Position numbers and translations under genes: made by a program
Assembly (NCBI RefSeq): GCF_016863035.1
Contig: NZ_BOOC01000003.1
Location: 310,001-374,000, forward strand
Origin: Microbispora corallina
GTDB lineage: Bacteria > Actinomycetota > Actinomycetes > Streptosporangiales > Streptosporangiaceae
DNA: 64,000 nucleotides
Reading direction: 5' to 3'
Notes under the pieces: generated by a model
What the model saw: only the letters and a program-made list of their open reading frames with translations
Told to the model about the DNA's origin: nothing
Databases searched by the model: none
Shown here: positions 5,032 to 11,999 of the stretch, one piece after another
How positions within the stretch are numbered: position 1 is the first letter of the stretch
Layout of the letters: each line of letters starts with the position of its first letter

Positions 5032-5850
5032 TCAGCGGTCGCCCTCCGGGGCGTCGTCGATGGCGAAGGACAGGTAGCGCTCGGCCGAGCGCCGGACGGC
5101 CTCGCTCCCGTCCGCGTCGACCACCAGCCGCCACCAGGCGCCGTACACCCGGTCGAAGGGGTACGGCTGGAGCAGCGCGAGCGCCCGGCGGACGGTTCGC
5201 GGCCGCTCGGGGATGTAGTTGGGGTAGCTGTACATGAAGCTGACCCAGCGCCGGTCGCGGACGACCTGGAGGATGTCGCCGGAGAACAGCGCCCCGCCGT
5301 CCGCCGTCCGGCGGTGCAGCACCTGGCCGCCCGCGAAGTGGACCCCCGCGTTGATCAGCGTGAGGCCCTCGCCGATCTCCCGGGTGTCGCCCTCCCAGAA
5401 CACGACCGCGTCGTCGGGCCGGCCCACCCACCGCCGGTCGGCGGCGTGGACGTACACCGGGGCGTCGAACGCGTGCGCCCACTCGACCATGCTCCCGTAG
5501 AAGTGGGGGTGGCTGACCGCGATGGCGTCGACCCCGCCGAGGCCCCTGACCTGCCGCACCAGGTCGTCGTCCAGGTAGCTGATCATGTCCCACAGGACGT
5601 TGCCGGACGGCGTGCGCACGAGCAGCGCCCGCTGGCCGATGGCGGTGGGCGGCTCGGCGCCGATCCCGACCACGCCGGGGCCCTCCTCCTCGACCCGGCC
5701 CCGGTGCCCGGCCGCCCGCAGCGCGGCGAGCGAGGTCCAGCGCTGGCCGTCCCATCCGACGTACTGGCGCTCGTCCTCGCAGATCGGGCAGTCGTCCCGG
5801 GGGGCGGCGTACTGGACGCCGCAGGTCACGCAGATGGGCAGGTCGTTCAC
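5032..5850 (-). CDS. Zinc-ribbon + metallo-beta-lactamase-fold protein
   Basis: 272-aa protein. The N-terminal 25 residues hold two Cys pairs (CVTCG and CPICED), a rubredoxin/zinc-ribbon-like knuckle. The rest is an MBL-type fold: LLVRTPSGNVLWDMISYL, then VSHPHFYGSMVEWA where HxHxDH is expected, and later LFSGDILQVVRDR. The metal site is degenerate: the HxH is kept but the following Asp-His is replaced by Tyr-Gly. It may therefore bind one metal or none, and hydrolase activity is uncertain. The GTG at 5850 has GGAGGGAG just upstream. It is a same-strand neighbour of the ArsR unit, 69 nt apart, but probably transcribed separately. Confidence 0.75.
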   Translation of the reverse strand: MNDLPICVTCGVQYAAPRDDCPICEDERQYVGWDGQRWTSLAALRAAGHRGRVEEEGPGVVGIGAEPPTAIGQRALLVRTPSGNVLWDMISYLDDDLVRQVRGLGGVDAIAVSHPHFYGSMVEWAHAFDAPVYVHAADRRWVGRPDDAVVFWEGDTREIGEGLTLINAGVHFAGGQVLHRRTADGGALFSGDILQVVRDRRWVSFMYSYPNYIPERPRTVRRALALLQPYPFDRVYGAWWRLVVDADGSEAVRRSAERYLSFAIDDAPEGDR

Positions 5851-5965
5851 CGGGCTCCCTCCGGTCGGCGTACCCGTATCCCATCACCCTGAGTCACCTC
5901 CGCGCCGCCGGGCTTCGGGCGTCCTGTGCCAAGACGTCCTGGTAGAGGCATTACGTGCATCACAT

Positions 5966-5993
5966 TGCGCGTCCGATCTGTCACGTTATGTAA
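5966..5993 (+). promoter_or_regulatory. Candidate promoter of the low-complexity cluster
   Basis: TTGCGC (5966-5971) and TATGTA (5988-5993) are spaced 16 bp apart in an AT-rich island, about 45 nt before the start at 6040. The flanks also hold a loose inverted repeat (ATTACGTG ... CACGTTATGTAAT, 5951-5995), which could bind a regulator. The 5'UTR would be about 40 nt. Confidence 0.45.
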
Positions 5994-6039
5994 TCACAAC
6001 GGCGATGAGCCATCCCTATCCGGGCTCGAAGGAGTGACC

Positions 6040-7308
6040 ATGACGTTCACAGCGATGCACCCCATGTCCGTGGCGACCTCGCTGGGTTACGGCTCCCAGC
6101 ACCCGATCTCCGCCCTGCAGTTCGCCCAGATCCCACAGGCCCTCGGCCAGCAGCAGGTAACGCCCTTCGGCGGGATGGTCCAGCAGGAGGAGCAGATCCT
6201 CCCGCAGGAGCACCTGGTGAACCCGGCCGCCTTCTGGCACAAGGTCGCGCGGCAGGCCGTCCGGTACGGCGCTCCGGCCGCCCGGCAGATCCTCGAGATC
6301 GTCCAGTACCAGCAGATCCAGCCCCAGGTGGCCCAGCTGATGGCCCAGCAGCTCGCCCAGTCCGGGCTGCTCCAGCTCGCGCCGCAGGCCACGCTCCAGT
6401 ACGGCCAGCCCGTGCCGTTCGGCGCGATGACCGGGCAGGAGGAGCAGGTCCTCCCGCAGGAGCACGTCGTGAGCCCGGTGACCTTCTGGATGAAGGTGAA
6501 CCGCCTCAGCGCCCGGTACGGCGTTCCCGCCGTCCGGCAGATCCTGGAGAGCGTGCTGCACCAGCAGATCCAGCAGCAGATCCAGCAGCAGATCCAGGCG
6601 GGCATGCCGATCCAGGCTCCGCAGGCCGTCCAGGGCATGCCCGGCGTGGCCGCGCTGAACGGGCTGACGGGCCTCAACGGCATGGCGGGCCTCAACGGCC
6701 TGAACGGCGTCGCCGGATTGACCGCCGCGGCCGGGCTGACCGGGGTGAACGGGATGACCGGCGCGTTCGGCGTGCCCGGTGTCCAGGGCCTGCAGGCCGC
6801 CCAGGGTGTCCCGGGCATTCAGGGCGTTCAGGGCCTCCTGGGCGCCGCGGCCGTGCACCCGCTGCAGGCCGCCCAGCAGATCCAGCAGCTTGTGGCCCTG
6901 CAGCAGGCCCAGCAGGCGGCGGCCCAGCAGCTCGCCGCCCTCCAGTACGGCACGCCGTACGCCGCCCAGTACGCGGGCCAGTACGGGACCCCGTACGCCG
7001 CTCAGTACGCGACGCCGTACGCCCAGCAGCCGTACGCCCAGGCCCACTACGCGGCGCAGTACGCGACGCCGTACGCGGCCCAGTACGGCCAGGGTCACTA
7101 CGCGACCCCGTACGCGACCGCCTACGGCACCCCGTATGGGCAGCAGGCCGGCCAGAGCCCGCTGAGCATGCAGCTGGCCCAGCAGCTCGCGGCCCAGCAG
7201 TACGGCCAGTACGGCCAGTACGGCCAGCAGGTGCCCCAGGCGCACGCCGCCCAGATGCACCAGCAGGTCCAGCAGCAGTCCCCGGTGCCGGCCGGTGCCG
7301 GATTCTGA
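6040..7308 (+). CDS. Q/Y-rich prion-like low-complexity protein with duplicated module
   Basis: 422-aa protein of unknown function with no signal peptide or clear membrane helix. In order: (1) two copies of a folded-looking module of about 58 residues, roughly residues 41-97 and 125-184, sharing PFGxM...QEEQxLPQEHxVxP, FWxKV, RYGxPAxRQILE and QQIQxQ; (2) a Gly/Leu/Asn segment, about 206-267, of xLNG and VPGVQG type; (3) Gln/Ala-rich helices; (4) about 303-366, a Tyr/Ala/Gln segment with repeated QYATPYA, then YGQYGQYGQ. The Tyr-Gly-Gln composition resembles phase-separating or prion-like domains. ATG 6040 is preceded by GGAGTGACC. The Met-Gly-Pro repeat gene follows 13 nt later, so the two are co-transcribed. 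It could be a scaffold, assembly former or protease substrate. Confidence 0.7.
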   Translation: MTFTAMHPMSVATSLGYGSQHPISALQFAQIPQALGQQQVTPFGGMVQQEEQILPQEHLVNPAAFWHKVARQAVRYGAPAARQILEIVQYQQIQPQVAQLMAQQLAQSGLLQLAPQATLQYGQPVPFGAMTGQEEQVLPQEHVVSPVTFWMKVNRLSARYGVPAVRQILESVLHQQIQQQIQQQIQAGMPIQAPQAVQGMPGVAALNGLTGLNGMAGLNGLNGVAGLTAAAGLTGVNGMTGAFGVPGVQGLQAAQGVPGIQGVQGLLGAAAVHPLQAAQQIQQLVALQQAQQAAAQQLAALQYGTPYAAQYAGQYGTPYAAQYATPYAQQPYAQAHYAAQYATPYAAQYGQGHYATPYATAYGTPYGQQAGQSPLSMQLAQQLAAQQYGQYGQYGQQVPQAHAAQMHQQVQQQSPVPAGAGF

Positions 7309-7321
7309 TCGGAGGCACGTG

Positions 7322-7933
7322 GTGGACTCGATGGGCGCAGGGCCGTCGTGGCCCGGAGCCGTCGCGGGGGGAGCCGGCGCTGCCATGAACTCCGTGAACC
7401 CGGTGACGGGTCCGGCGATGGCGATGACGACAGGGCCGGTGATGAACCCGGGTGTGGGCCCCGCGATGACGCCGCCGATGGGTCCGATGGGTCCGGTGGT
7501 GGGTCCGCTCGGCATGGCGACGACCCCGATGGGCCCGATGGGATCGATGGACATGGCGACGGCCTCGATGGGTCCGATGGGTCCGATGGGCCCGATGGGA
7601 CCGATGGCTCCCATGGGCCTGGGGACTCCGCCGGCCGCGGCTTTCATGGGCGGTGCGCCGGCGGCCCCCGGGATGGGGCCGGTGACGGGGCCCGTCCCGG
7701 GCGTCCCGGGGCCGTTCGACCCGCCGCAGGCGCGGTGCGCCGCCGCCCTCCAGTGGATGTTCGGCTGGCTGCAGGCATCCCTCCCGCAGGCGCCGCAGCT
7801 CGCCGGGATCGTCCCACTGGCGGTCCAGGCGGTGCGGCTGTACCGGGCGGGTCAGTACGAGGCGTGCCTGGGCCAGATCCAGTACACGCTCACCGCCGTC
7901 CAGTACGGCCCGCCCATCGCTCCACCGCTGTGA
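7322..7933 (+). CDS. Met-Gly-Pro repeat protein with conserved-looking C-terminal domain
   Basis: 203-aa protein, function unknown. The first 120 residues are low-complexity with many Met-Gly-Pro triplets (PMGPMGPMGPMGPMAPMG), loosely collagen-like but too irregular to claim a triple helix. The last 75 residues look folded and helical (PPQARCAAALQWMFGWLQAS, AVQAVRLYRAGQYEACLGQI, then QYTLTAVQYG). No signal peptide. Start chosen at GTG 7322, which is 6 nt after GGAGG (7311-7315); GTG 7319 is too close and ATG 7331 too far. It follows the Q/Y-rich gene by 13 nt and is followed by a strong hairpin. Both proteins end in Gln-Tyr-rich or Tyr-Gly motifs, suggesting they act together. Confidence 0.7.
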   Translation: MDSMGAGPSWPGAVAGGAGAAMNSVNPVTGPAMAMTTGPVMNPGVGPAMTPPMGPMGPVVGPLGMATTPMGPMGSMDMATASMGPMGPMGPMGPMAPMGLGTPPAAAFMGGAPAAPGMGPVTGPVPGVPGPFDPPQARCAAALQWMFGWLQASLPQAPQLAGIVPLAVQAVRLYRAGQYEACLGQIQYTLTAVQYGPPIAPPL

Positions 7934-7948
7934 CGAGATCACCTGAGT

Positions 7949-7979
7949 GGCCCGGACCGGCCCGTCGCCGGTCCGGGCC
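7949..7979 (+). terminator. Perfect 12-bp hairpin after the two repeat-protein genes
   Basis: GGCCCGGACCGG (7949-7960) and CCGGTCCGGGCC (7968-7979) form a perfect 12-bp stem with a 7-nt loop, 15 nt after the stop of the Met-Gly-Pro gene. It probably ends or reduces transcription before the protease gene, which would then have its own promoter or lower expression. The 280-nt gap it lies in holds no convincing gene. Confidence 0.7.
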
Positions 7980-8213
7980 CCTCCCGCACCGATCCCGCGG
8001 AGGTTCGTCCCCCCGCCACCCGTGCCCGGGCCGTACGGCCTCACGAGGTTGACGCCGGGCGGGGGCGGGCGGGGTGCGGAGGGCGGGGAGCCGGCCGCGG
8101 AGCCCCGCGACCGGCCCGGCCACCGCGGGTGACGACAGAGCCCGTTCCTGCCCCGTCGAGCCCACCGGGCACGGCCGGCGACGCCAGCGCGAGCTGGGGA
8201 GAGTCGAGACGTT

Positions 8214-11021
8214 GTGACGAGTAACGACAAGCCAAAGGACGGAACCGGGGAGGCGCGCCGCACGGCCTCGGGCCGGGCGCGGCAGACCTCCCGGCAGGCG
8301 CCGCAGCCGGTGGAGCCCCGGCCCCGGCGCCACATGGTGGCGGCGCTGCCCCAGCCGTACCTGACGGCCCTCGGGGTCGCCGCGCCGGCGCTCGACGCGG
8401 ACGACCTGCACCGGCTGCTGGAGGACGACCCCGAGGTGCGGGTGCACCGCCGGGTCGTGCCCGCCGGAGGAGGGCTCGAAGGGGCCGACGCCATGCCCTT
8501 TCCACCCGTGGTGGTGGCGGACATGACGCCGGAGCACGCCGTGGCGCTGCGCAGACGCCATCCGCAACTGCACATCGAGCGCGACCGGCTGCTCACCTAC
8601 AGCGAGGTGCCCGTGCCGCCCCGCCGGCGGCGGCCCGCCGCGGCGGTGCTCCCGGTCGGCGTGGAGAGCACGTTCACGTTCCTGGTGCGGGACGCCGACG
8701 GCGACCCCGTGCCGGACGCGACCGTCTTCGTGACCGGGAACGGCTGGCCCGCGCAGGCCGTGACCGGGACGGACGGCAGGGCGACGGTCACCATGGCGGG
8801 GGAGACCCCGGAGACCGTCGCGAGCGTCATGGTCCGGCCGCGCGCCGGATTCTGGAGCCGCCACATCGAGCGGCCCGCCCTGTCGACCAGGCGGGACAAC
8901 CTGATCGAGCTGGTCAGGCTGTCGGAGACGTTCGAGGGCTTCCCGGGACGGCAGGTGTTCGGGTGGGGCCAGCAGGCCATGCACCTGGACCGGCTGCCGC
9001 CCACCCTCCGCGGCGCGGGGGCGCGGATCGCCCTGATCGACTCGGGGGCGGCCGTCCGGCACCCCGACCTCGCGGGCAGGGTGAGCGCGGGGATCGACCT
9101 CGTCGGCGGCAAGGCCGAGGGCTGGGCGCTCGACGCCGCCCAGCACGGCTCCCACTGCGCCGGGATCGTCGCCGGGGCCGACGACGGCCGCGGCGTCGTG
9201 GGCTTCGCGGTCGAGGCCGAGGTGCACGCCTGCAAGATCTTCCCCGGAGGCCGCTTCAGCGACCTCGTCGAGGCCCTCGACTACTGCATCGAGCAGCAGA
9301 TCGACGTCGTCAACCTCAGCCTCGGCAGCCCGCATCCGTCGCCGCTCGTGGCCGCCAAGATCGAGCAGGCGCGGAACGCGGGCGTCGCGTGCGTCGTGGC
9401 CGCCGGCAACGACGGCGGGCCCGTCGGCTTCCCCGGCACCCTGCCCACCGTGCTGACGGTGGCGGCGATCGGCAGGGCGGGCACGTTCCCGGCCGGGACC
9501 TCCCACGCCGCCGAGATCCTGGAGCCGCGCACCGGCGAGGGGTACTTCTCGCCCCGCTTCACCTGCCACGGCCCGGAGGTCGACGTCTGCGCGCCGGGCG
9601 TGGCCGTCCTGTCGTCCGTGCCGCCCGACGCGTACGCGGCCTGCGACGGCACCTCCATGGCCGCGCCGCACGTGGCGGGCCTGGCGGCGCTCGTGCTGGC
9701 GCACCACCCGGACTTCCGTAACGGGTACGCCGCCAGGGACGCCCGCCGGGTCGACCGGCTGTTCCAGATCATCAGGGCGAGCTGCGTCCCGCTGGATCTG
9801 GGGGACCCGAGGCGCACGGGGGCGGGGCTGCCCAGTGCCCTGCGCGCGCTCGGGCCGGCGCTCGCGCACGTCACGCGGGAGATGGGGGAGGTCCAGGTGA
9901 CGCTGGAGCAGCTGACGATGGAGATGATGTCGGCCGGGCTGCTCGTGCCGCCGGTCCCCTTCTCCGGCGTCGCCGGGGGCGTGCCCGGGGCGGCTCCGTC
10001 CGTGAACGGGACGGGCCCGGCCGCGATGGCCGGCACGTTGGCCGGCACGTTGGCCGGCACGTTGGCCGGCATGGTCCCGGGCGCCGGGCTCGGCCCGGTC
10101 TCCGTCCAGGTCGCGAACGGCCCGGTCGCGAACGGTCCGGTTCCGAACCCGTTCGCCAATGGCCCCGTCCCGAACGGCCCGTTCGCCAACGGCCCGGTCC
10201 TGAACGGCCCGGTCCCGAACGGTCCGGCGGCCTGCGGGCCTGATGTCGGCGGCCACCACTCCTTCACCGGCGGACAGCTCGCGGGCCAGGATCCCGGTCA
10301 CCCGGGTGCCCCGGGGCCGGCTCACGGTTCTCTCCACGGTCCGGGCATGGGCGGGCCGGCGTACCCGGGCACGGCCGCAGCGGGTCACACCGGCCTGGGT
10401 ACGCCCGGTCTCAACGGGCCGGCTTTCGACGTTCCGGGCGCGAGCGGGCCGGGTCTGCACGGGCCCGGTCTGAACGGGCCGGTCTCCAACGGGCCGGATC
10501 TGAACGGGCCGGATCTGAACGGGCCGGGTCTGAACGGGCCGATCCTGAACGGCCCGGCCACCGCCAACGGCCCGGTCCCGCACGTCAACGGCGGCTCATG
10601 GGCGCCGGACACGGCGGCCTCCGCGGGAGCCGGGACGCGGGGCGGCGTCGCGAGGCCGGACGCCGGGACGGGCACGGGCCGCGGCCGGACCGCGACCGGG
10701 CGGGCGTCCCACCCGGCCGGCACCGGGAAGGCGGGACGCGGGGTCTCCCGGGGCGCGGGCACGGCGTCCGCCGCGGAGGGCACCGCCGCGCCGGCCCAGG
10801 GGATCCCGCCGTACGGCGCCGCAGGAGCCGTGCCGGGGGTGGGCCCCGCGGCAGGAACGCCCGCCGACATGGGCGCGAACGGCGCCGGGGCCGCGAACGG
10901 CACACCCGGCGCGGCGGCCGGCTACCCGACGGGGAACGGCCTGACCGCCCTGTCGTGGCTGGCCGAGGAGATGCGCGCCGCCGGCCTCCTCGCGGAGCGG
11001 ACGTCCGAGACGCTGGACTGA
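8214..11021 (+). CDS. Signal-less subtilisin-like (S8) serine peptidase with NGP-repeat tail
   Basis: 935-aa S8 family peptidase. In order: a basic Pro-rich lead of about 40 residues with no signal peptide; a propeptide-like region (about 45-130); a beta-sandwich resembling carboxypeptidase-regulatory/Ig repeats (about 150-235, DADGDPVPDATVFVTGNG); and the catalytic domain (about 265-520). The catalytic residues are Asp276 (IALIDSGAAVRHPD), His311 (HGSHCAGIVAG), oxyanion Asn399 (AAGNDGG) and Ser481 (GTSMAAPHVAG), all intact. The final 360 residues are disordered with (L)NGP repeats. A short EM-x-x-AGLL motif occurs after the catalytic domain (MEMMSAGLL, about 569-577) and again at the extreme C-terminus (AEEMRAAGLLAE). 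GTG 8214 is preceded by GGGGAGAG about 13 nt away. The lack of an export signal suggests intracellular action, possibly on its low-complexity neighbours. Confidence 0.88.
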   Translation: MTSNDKPKDGTGEARRTASGRARQTSRQAPQPVEPRPRRHMVAALPQPYLTALGVAAPALDADDLHRLLEDDPEVRVHRRVVPAGGGLEGADAMPFPPVVVADMTPEHAVALRRRHPQLHIERDRLLTYSEVPVPPRRRRPAAAVLPVGVESTFTFLVRDADGDPVPDATVFVTGNGWPAQAVTGTDGRATVTMAGETPETVASVMVRPRAGFWSRHIERPALSTRRDNLIELVRLSETFEGFPGRQVFGWGQQAMHLDRLPPTLRGAGARIALIDSGAAVRHPDLAGRVSAGIDLVGGKAEGWALDAAQHGSHCAGIVAGADDGRGVVGFAVEAEVHACKIFPGGRFSDLVEALDYCIEQQIDVVNLSLGSPHPSPLVAAKIEQARNAGVACVVAAGNDGGPVGFPGTLPTVLTVAAIGRAGTFPAGTSHAAEILEPRTGEGYFSPRFTCHGPEVDVCAPGVAVLSSVPPDAYAACDGTSMAAPHVAGLAALVLAHHPDFRNGYAARDARRVDRLFQIIRASCVPLDLGDPRRTGAGLPSALRALGPALAHVTREMGEVQVTLEQLTMEMMSAGLLVPPVPFSGVAGGVPGAAPSVNGTGPAAMAGTLAGTLAGTLAGMVPGAGLGPVSVQVANGPVANGPVPNPFANGPVPNGPFANGPVLNGPVPNGPAACGPDVGGHHSFTGGQLAGQDPGHPGAPGPAHGSLHGPGMGGPAYPGTAAAGHTGLGTPGLNGPAFDVPGASGPGLHGPGLNGPVSNGPDLNGPDLNGPGLNGPILNGPATANGPVPHVNGGSWAPDTAASAGAGTRGGVARPDAGTGTGRGRTATGRASHPAGTGKAGRGVSRGAGTASAAEGTAAPAQGIPPYGAAGAVPGVGPAAGTPADMGANGAGAANGTPGAAAGYPTGNGLTALSWLAEEMRAAGLLAERTSETLD
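10029..10580 (+). repeat. In-frame short repeats in the protease tail
   Basis: At 10029-10076 a 12-bp unit (GCCGGCACGTTG) repeats four times in a row, the last copy diverged, coding Ala-Gly-Thr-Leu. From about 10110 to 10240 and 10440 to 10575 many 12-18-bp units code for Asn-Gly-Pro with a variable residue before (LNGP, SNGP, ANGP). All keep the frame, pointing to expansion by slippage under coding constraint. Confidence 0.85.
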
Positions 11022-11030
11022 CCCCGGCCC

Positions 11031-11999
11031 ATGAGGGGACTTCCGCCGTACTCGCCGATGACGGCGCAGCTCGGGCCGCTGCCCGAGCCGGACCGGGACT
11101 ACGCCCACGAGATGAAGTGGGACGGGGTCCGGGCGCTGGCCTACGTGGACGGGGGACGGCTCCGGCTGATCTCCAGGAACGCCAGGGACATCACCGAGGC
11201 GTACCCGGAGATCGCCGGCCTGGCCGGGGCCGTCGGCGGCAACGACGCCGTCCTCGACGGGGAGATCGTGGCGTTCGACGAGCAGGGGAGGCCCTCGTTC
11301 GAGGCGCTCCAGCCGAGGATGCACCAGCGCAACCCGGCGCGGATCGCCCAGCTCGCGGCGGCCGTGCCCGTGACGTACCTGCTGTTCGACGTGCTCCACG
11401 TGAACACCGCCCCCGCGATCGCCATGCCCTACTCGGCGCGCAGGGGGCTGCTCGACGAGATCGTGCGGAAGGGCGCCCACTGGGACATCCCGCCGTACTT
11501 CCGGAACGGTGGCGCCCATGTGCTGGCCGAGTCGCGGCGGCTCGGCCTCGAAGGCGTGGTCGCCAAGCGGCTGACCTCGCCGTACCGGCCGGGGAGGCGG
11601 TCACCTGACTGGGTCAAGGTGAAGAACGTCCGCACCCAGGAGGTGGTCGTGTGCGGCTGGAAGGCGGGCGAGGGCCGGCGCACCGGGACGATCGGGTCGC
11701 TGCTGCTCGGCGTGCACGACGAGCGCGGCCGCCTCCGGTACGCCGGTAGCGTCGGCACGGGCTTCACCGAGGCCGCGCTGCGCCGGATCGCCGAACGGCT
11801 GGCCCCTCTCGCGCGCCGGACCCCGCCCTTCGACGAGGAGCCGTCCCGGGAGGACGCGCGGGGCGCGCACTGGGTCGAGCCCCTGCTCGTGGGCGAGGTC
11901 CAGTACGCCGAGTGGACGGGCGAGCACCGGCTCCGCCACCCCTCCTGGCGGGGCTTCAGAGAGGACAAGAACCCCGAGGACGTGATGCGTGAGCAGTGA
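11031..11999 (+). CDS. ATP-dependent DNA ligase (LigC/LigD ligase-domain type)
   Basis: 322-aa stand-alone ATP-dependent DNA ligase. The nucleotidyltransferase domain has the AMP-accepting lysine Lys29 in EMKWDGVRA (motif KxDG). Other ligase motifs are LDGEIVAFDEQGRPSFEAL, the LGLEGVVAKR motif and SPDWVKVKN (motif V). A C-terminal OB-fold (VVCGWKAGEGRRTGTIGSLL, VGTGFTEAALRRI) follows. The polymerase and nuclease domains of full LigD are absent, so this resembles a LigC-type enzyme for end-joining or repair of ribonucleotide-containing breaks. It starts 9 nt after the protease stop, without a clear SD, so it may be translationally coupled; a functional link to the protease is not evident. Confidence 0.9.
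   Translation: MRGLPPYSPMTAQLGPLPEPDRDYAHEMKWDGVRALAYVDGGRLRLISRNARDITEAYPEIAGLAGAVGGNDAVLDGEIVAFDEQGRPSFEALQPRMHQRNPARIAQLAAAVPVTYLLFDVLHVNTAPAIAMPYSARRGLLDEIVRKGAHWDIPPYFRNGGAHVLAESRRLGLEGVVAKRLTSPYRPGRRSPDWVKVKNVRTQEVVVCGWKAGEGRRTGTIGSLLLGVHDERGRLRYAGSVGTGFTEAALRRIAERLAPLARRTPPFDEEPSREDARGAHWVEPLLVGEVQYAEWTGEHRLRHPSWRGFREDKNPEDVMREQ

Follow-up and report, generated by a model that had tools for sequence, protein, structure and literature searches.

An apparently intracellular subtilase encoded in a conserved actinomycete cassette with a Q-rich repeat protein and a small helical protein

The stretch of Microbispora corallina DNA analysed here (64,000 nucleotides, positions 310001–374000 of contig NZ_BOOC01000003.1, hereafter the window) carries three adjacent genes on its forward strand, g1, g2 and g3, which form a real, conserved cassette (Table 1). 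They encode a Q-rich repeat protein, a small protein with a three-helix domain and a subtilase, and the open reading frames agree with the initial annotation in placing them side by side on one strand. The gene set is well supported: it was established by computation together with the gene order, the co-occurrence, the domains, a motif in the protease tail, the conservation of a hairpin and of a promoter region, and the lack of a visible export signal. Our main reading, to which we assign a probability of roughly 40%, is that the cassette specifies an intracellular prodomain-gated subtilase docked by short tails on a multivalent scaffold; the docking, self-assembly, inhibition and stoichiometry in this reading are what we infer from these data. 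No published description of the cassette was found in a literature search that covered few subscription journals and preprints. Prodomain-gated subtilases and stand-alone propeptide-like inhibitors are already known (PMC6993865, PMC6220982), and it is the combination of a subtilase with g1 and g2 that appears to be new.

Table 1. Features of the cassette, in positions of the window.
Feature	Position	Strand	Evidence
Conserved stretch upstream of g1 (candidate promoter/operator)	5949–6007	+	Alignment of the sequence upstream of g1 at 27 loci
g1, presumed scaffold; Q/G-rich, with hydrophobic helical modules	6040–7308	+	ORF, relatives, composition
g1 helical module 1 (EEQILPQEH..FWHKVARQ..RYGAPAARQILE)	6184–6306	+	Duplicated within g1, kept in relatives
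g1 helical module 2 (EEQVLPQEH..FWMKVNR..RYGVPAVRQILE)	6436–6555	+	Duplicated within g1, kept in relatives
g1 G-x-y/LNG stretch, collagen-like	6670–6825	+	Pfam Collagen, E 6.5e-8; no array in relatives read
g2, MGP-rich N-terminal part (variable) and conserved C-terminal domain	7319/7322–7933	+	ORF, alignment of relatives
g2 conserved three-helix domain	7715–7930	+	Alignment A2; AlphaFold pLDDT 86
GC-rich hairpin between g2 and g3	7949–7979	+	Perfect 13-bp stem
g3, intracellular subtilase	8214–11021	+	Pfam, relatives, model, hydropathy
g3 prodomain-like N-domain, aa 38–123, beta-alpha-beta-beta-alpha-beta	8325–8582	+	Predicted model; homology to gI of relatives
g3 Ig-like domain, aa 151–232	8664–8909	+	Pfam Big_1 and predicted model
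g3 S8 domain; Asp276, His311, Asn399, Ser481 present	9012–9719	+	Pfam and alignment
g3 tail motif 1 (LEQLTMEMMSAGL)	9903–9941	+	Motif search of g3 tails
g3 Asn-Gly-Pro repeat stretch, variable	10100–10590	+	ORF reading, comparison with relatives
g3 tail motif 2 (LSWLAEEMRAAGL)	10950–10988	+	Motif search of g3 tails

We searched 345 genomes of one actinomycete order with two profiles, A2 for the core of g2 and A3 for the N-terminal region of g3. The A3 profile matched 43 of them (E ≤ 1e-10), patchily distributed over 11 of the 70 genera, and g3 was present in all 14 Microbispora genomes searched. Every one of the 42 genomes that A2 matched at E 1.3e-9 or better lies within these 43; none of the 345 showed a strong g2 match without g3, and four other genomes gave weak g2 matches (E 0.002–0.006). 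In all 42, g2 is upstream of g3 on the same contig and strand, with 209–562 bases between the matched stretches. The A2 profile was made from copies of g2 that adjoin g3 and is therefore biased towards linked ones, but 29 of the 42 genomes contributed no row to it. The sole genome of the order with g3 and no g2 (G577) holds only a fragment of g3 with an open frame of 243 aa. A class-level search of 394 genomes gave A3 matches in 22 (E ≤ 0.001), of which 14 were strong (E < 1e-30) and the remaining eight weak, over the Ig-like part; g2 accompanies 13 of the 14 strong matches (the exception is G238), and one further genome of the class (G287) has a g2 match at E 0.009. The initial annotation had held that its hypothesis would fall if the neighbours were not conserved together. 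They are: g2 lies beside g3 in 42 of 43 genomes, and 50 of the 52 readable loci have a Q-rich g1 preceding g2.

The window's g3 is a protein of 935 aa and one of 13 S8 matches in the 8.36-Mb genome. Pfam Peptidase_S8 (PF00082) matches residues 267–502 (E 3e-38), and the Asp/His/Ser triad and oxyanion Asn that define peptidase family S8 are all present (D276, H311, N399, S481). In the predicted model (590 aa, pLDDT 79) an N-domain at residues 38–123 and an Ig-like domain at 151–232 are followed by the S8 domain and a C-terminal helix. Pfam Big_1 matches 15 of 15 relatives at E ≤ 0.1 (best 2.4e-8), the window's own match (E 2.9e-7) lying below the curated cut-off, and a profile of the g3 N-terminal region returned 10 weak matches, mostly Ig-like, among PDB sequences. 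Foldseek placed unprocessed pro-subtilisin E at ranks 1 and 2, with Pro-S324A mutants and pro-Tk-subtilisin at ranks 31–48. The alignments to these pro-forms cover 525–570 columns at an rmsd of 9.0–11.6, a poor overall superposition that makes any seating of the N-domain on the active site tentative. Pfam I9 matched none of 15 relatives at E 0.1 and none of eight N-domain and gI sequences even at E 10. Because of this miss and the poor superposition we call the N-domain 'prodomain-like' and infer its inhibitory role. Like the pro-subtilisins with an I9 prodomain (pro-subtilisin E, 3whi; pro-Tk-subtilisin, 2e1p), g3 has an S8 domain and the same predicted strand and helix order in its N-domain. 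It differs from them in having an Ig-like domain between the N-domain and the S8 domain, tail helices and g1 and g2 as partners, and in lacking both a Pfam I9 match and an export signal.

The lack of an export signal, remarked on for the window's protein in the initial annotation, holds across the family as judged by hydropathy: none of 46 distinct g3 proteins has a signal-peptide-like start, and the highest 11-residue Kyte-Doolittle mean within the first 60 residues has a median of 0.85, the family maximum of 1.83 belonging to the window's g3. As a control we took seven further S8 loci from the window's genome, of which four gave readable ORFs and three gave none; these four score 2.15–2.56 and have signal-peptide-like stretches. 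At the other end of the protein, the LxxLxxEMxxAGL helix is found in 44 of the 46 distinct g3 tails, against 1.1 expected from shuffles and none of 46 reversed tails; it was not found in g3 of loci L058 and L102. The best NCBIfam score for g3 came from the type VII mycosin model (TIGR03921), but this identity was rejected at 121 bits against a cut-off of 278.75 bits and with no hydrophobic start in the 46 proteins. Type VII mycosins carry a signal peptide and a membrane anchor. Assignment to the PatA/PatG cyanobactin protease (TIGR03895, 37.6/421 bits) or to IetS of IetAS was rejected as well; the IetS match covers only residues 260–396 of 749 and there is no IetA in the conserved cassette.

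Repeat arrays had been put at the centre of the initial annotation, but the MGP, NGP and shared LNG arrays proved to be variable expansions. LNG repeats are indeed common to g1 and g3 in the window genome, but not as arrays in those g1 proteins of relatives that were read, and g3 of outgroups (563–650 aa) has no NGP arrays. What is conserved instead is the three-helix domain of g2 and, in g3, the N-domain, the Ig-like domain, the S8 domain and the LxxLxxEMxxAGL helix. Within Microbispora the median dN/dS was 0.40 for g1, 0.81 for g2 and 0.29 for g3 (36, 34 and 28 pairs), values to which we give little weight given low dS (0.08–0.20) and extreme GC content; taken alone, the figure for g2 is no demonstration of strong purifying selection.

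The active site itself is not constant. The four residues D/H/N/S are kept in 36 of the 46 distinct g3 proteins; the oxyanion Asn is replaced by Ser in five and by Asp in one (L059), and four are without further catalytic residues, namely those of L062 (Thermomonospora echinospora, DRDS), L102 (G238, DHDA), L103 (G058, DGDG) and L139 (G529, DTDG). From their sequences, these four of the 10 altered proteins look like dead proteases, and with four of 46 in this state proteolysis cannot be needed everywhere. At L062, L103 and L139 both g2 and a Q-rich g1 are retained beside the altered g3, and a pure switch in which the protease cleaves its scaffold is thus not the whole story. The constancy of the set, taken with the dead forms, argues that a complex, and not cleavage alone, is kept by selection.

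Active and dead members in one family of soluble subtilases are also a feature of the clostridial Csp germination proteins. C. difficile senses germinants with the soluble pseudoprotease CspC (PMC6636752). A signal relay of this type, in which soluble subtilases and pseudoproteases would be sensors or partners in spores or hyphae and g1 and g2 would anchor g3 in a coat or matrix, is in our judgement an unlikely account of the cassette. It would suit the hosts named here, all actinomycetes of mycelial habit, as well as the mixture of active and dead forms, but g3 scores far below the cut-offs of the Csp models (19.6/1250 bits for CspBA and 11.1/675 bits for CspC), on which ground we rejected the identification, and the flanks examined have no spore or germination gene in common. 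Csp subtilases are not known to have partners resembling g1 and g2.

In 22 of 54 loci, 17 of them distinct, g2 and g3 are separated by a fourth gene, gI, of about 73–93 aa; the model used to find it was built from six of the distinct ones. By hhalign gI is a homologue of the N-domain of g3 (probability 97, P 1.5e-11) and not of its Ig-like part. A further weak match, at L151, was read as part of g3 itself, and gI was not found in Microbispora, the window included. It stands beside 18 of the 36 active-site-intact g3 proteins and beside none of the 10 altered ones (Fisher p 0.0036, a value inflated by shared ancestry), a direction that fits gI being an inhibitor of the active enzyme; the other 18 intact proteins, the window's among them, are without gI. 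Streptomyces sulfonofaciens has a second S8 gene of the family with its own gI upstream of the main cassette (L060, 4333–6379). The nearest parallel is found among stand-alone propeptide-like inhibitors such as Plasmodium SUB1-ProM, which is encoded next to a subtilase (PMC6993865), and gI is placed likewise in many relatives. SUB1-ProM differs in being eukaryotic and in acting in the parasitophorous vacuole, whereas gI is absent from the window and its inhibition is putative.

The g1 protein of the window (422 aa) had been described as prion-like. It is Q-rich (20.6% Gln, with 5.7% Tyr) but N-poor (1.7% Asn), and the only family match in it is the Pfam Collagen repeat at residues 211–262. A collagen-like adhesin was considered and rejected, the models matching only the G-x-y stretch and far below cut-off. 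For the survey of relatives, g1 was taken to be the ORF richest in Gln immediately upstream of g2 at 54 loci (some genomes being represented twice), of which L104 and L107 were too short, leaving 52 readable. An 80-aa window with at least 14% Gln occurs in 49 of the 52 upstream ORFs and one with at least 20% in 46, compared with 24 and 2, respectively, of 333 flank control positions subjected to the same ORF selection. The upstream ORF of L105 reaches 13.75%, and among the 52 no Q-rich ORF was found at the two that lack g2, L102 and L146. By tblastn the N-terminal part of g1 was recognised in 37 of 43 loci; L027, L028, L059, L060, L061 and L062 gave no match, and g1 is assigned there by position and composition only.

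The theme common to these proteins is one of hydrophobic helical modules between Q/G-rich linkers, a grouping by theme and not by demonstrated homology. The type of module depends on lineage: FWxKVAR in most Streptosporangiaceae, glycine-zipper modules in Acrocarpospora, Nonomuraea and G171, LLPLLEKLFSLF in G030, and QYPLLHQLVSNAIQQAL in Thermomonospora and Actinomadura. The repeats of G030 and G171 are nearly identical. Repeated glycine-zipper-like units in g1 of L054–L056 and L101 resemble membrane-active peptides, with Pfam matches below cut-off. Q-rich composition and repeated modules are the features of g1 that would suit a functional amyloid or prion-like scaffold. We also considered whether g1 shares the tail motif of g3 and rejected the idea, the motif being absent from all 50 g1 proteins with 1.2 expected. 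It is conceivable, if no more probable than a Csp-type relay, that g1 is instead a multi-copy peptide precursor, with g3 cutting the linkers to free hydrophobic or glycine-zipper peptides for membranes or signalling. Repeated modules whose type differs by lineage, the near-identical repeats and the weak, sub-cut-off glycine-zipper matches in L054 and L055 would all be in line with this; however, the conserved cassette has neither an exporter nor a modifying enzyme, the window's g1 repeats no peptide beyond two copies, and g1 and g2 are kept beside dead forms of g3.

From its first start, g2 of the window is a protein of 204 aa with 11% Met, 17% Gly and 18% Pro. The ORFs of most relatives measure 92–150 aa (those of L053, L057 and L058 being inflated by upstream starts) and have only the C-terminal domain in common; the window and L040 have long forms rich in repeats. 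The Actinoplanes g2 (L061, 17% identity) was assigned by position. AlphaFold predicts the core as three helices, for which a fold search against the PDB gave no match below E 1.1. As no Pfam model matches gI, the domain of g2 or most of the g1 proteins above cut-off, these are candidate new families.

The gap between g1 and g2 is 10 bases in the window, counting from the GTG at 7319, and 9–14 bases in L039, L040, L044, L054, L055, L056 and L025; at other loci the two genes overlap by the longest-ORF rule. The initial annotation was also right to point out a hairpin between g2 and g3. Its 11-bp arms occur in one place only in the genome. At 21 of the 31 loci compared, Streptomyces, Nonomuraea and G030 among them, the g2 stop is followed at +9 to +16 by a GC-rich stem that is 11 bp or longer; at the other ten there is no such stem in that position. 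Mononucleotide shuffles equalled the stem in at most 1 of 100 cases, and the whole 291-nt spacer folds only slightly better than its shuffles (z −2.1, 5 of 200 as good). The hairpin may affect termination or mRNA stability, and it is plausible that it is a means of keeping g1 and g2 in excess over g3. The conserved stretch upstream of g1 emerged from 27 of 32 loci, five having been dropped where the start was unrecognised or too near the edge. Its core, TCACGNNRTGTAATCACA, has one exact match in the genome, at 5981–5998, and 12 with up to three mismatches, against four for the reversed pattern. An alternative sigma factor or a regulator may bind at this core; in some relatives the stretch loosely resembles GTTT-N14/15-GGTATG, which we take to be the consensus of a sigma-B type element. 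Simple sigma-70 and terminator scans of 5800–11300 called nothing.

Cytoplasmic S8 proteases with an inhibitory N-terminal part are known from the intracellular subtilisins (ISPs) of Bacillus and Planococcus, and the ISP inhibitor IPI has an Ig-like fold (PMC6220982; PMC3901451). The LIPY/F propeptide motif of ISPs is found in none of the 46 g3 proteins, and we rejected g3 as an ISP on that basis; g3 further differs in that its one chain includes both an Ig-like domain and a folded N-domain, and in being accompanied by presumed scaffold and adaptor genes. A plain stationary-phase turnover enzyme of the ISP kind, whose low-complexity neighbours are merely operon-mates, would have precedent in stationary-phase intracellular subtilisins with inhibitory propeptides (PMC6220982). 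We consider it improbable, and slightly more so than the Csp-type relay and the peptide precursor, in view of the strict g1–g2–g3 linkage in the absence of shared flanks, the missing LIPY/F motif and the dead forms.

The cassette is not part of a frozen neighbourhood, and its flanks differ between distant genera. Among 34 loci searched, the window's neighbours (ArsR, metallo-beta-lactamase, LigD and universal-stress genes) recur only in Microbispora, Planotetraspora, Sphaerimonospora and two other genomes, with none at the Acrocarpospora, Nonomuraea, Actinomadura, Thermomonospora, Streptomyces or Actinoplanes loci; within Microbispora the window's flanks are stably inherited. Elsewhere in the window, an ORF on the reverse strand (about 645–1950) contains HGHGHG stretches that are very rich in His, along with DHRTDHR repeats in tandem, and is presumably cation-efflux-like, as we read its translation. 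Ten neighbours at six distant loci, compared with Pfam and PADLOC, comprise an allantoicase, a PASTA kinase, an S-adenosyl methyltransferase, a NACHT-LRR protein, a LysR, a pectate lyase, a LuxR-type regulator, an amylase, a peptidoglycan-binding protein and one without a match. The NACHT-LRR protein (NNH1-NACHT; L055, 12490–15831, reverse strand) adjoins the cassette in one Nonomuraea. A defence or cell-death module whose protease is freed by infection or stress finds some encouragement in the patchy distribution, in that NACHT-LRR gene, in a weak similarity to IetS (8e-6) and in a match to a PADLOC subtilase model (1e-23), each of the last two lying over the S8 domain, but it is the least probable of these readings, and a defence island was rejected as the main one, given that the other neighbours are mostly metabolic or regulatory, that the PADLOC matches on a kinase (PD-T4-6, L053) and an amylase (GlgB-like, L061) look generic, and that the Microbispora flanks are stable.

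Under our main reading, a prodomain-gated subtilase docked on a scaffold, g3 would be a soluble S8 protease restrained by its own prodomain-like N-domain, and gI would add a further inhibitor, acting in trans, in the many relatives that have it, outside the window's genus. The LxxLxxEMxxAGL helices of the g3 tail would probably dock onto g2, g1 or both; g1, with its hydrophobic helical modules on Q/G-rich linkers, is probably a multivalent, self-associating scaffold, and g2 probably serves as a small helical adaptor. With the hairpin behind g2, both g1 and g2 would be made in excess over g3, and a signal that alters the assembly would set the protease free or draw it into clusters. Supporting this mechanism are the g2–g3 linkage, the Q-rich g1, the N-domain topology, the gI homology, the occurrence of gI beside intact g3 proteins only, the tail motif, the lack of an export signal and the hairpin. 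Counting against it are the I9 misses, the high Foldseek rmsd, the dead g3 forms, the intact proteins without gI, the six of 43 loci with no g1 BLAST match, the absence of the tail motif from g1 and a hairpin that the terminator scan left uncalled. More tentatively still, we suggest a protease-on-scaffold switch unlike any named system, in which the Q-rich, multi-module g1 scaffold and the three-helix g2 adaptor would recruit a prodomain-gated cytoplasmic subtilase through repeated tail helices, and in which pseudoprotease lineages would keep the scaffold function while the trans inhibitor gene is lost. Lineages with a dead protease and retained partners offer a natural separation-of-function test. 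A protease in the cytoplasm is dangerous, and a subtilase without an export signal, encoded with a Q-rich protein, a helical partner and, in many relatives, a second version of its prodomain-like domain, may represent an unstudied regulatory device in mycelial bacteria.
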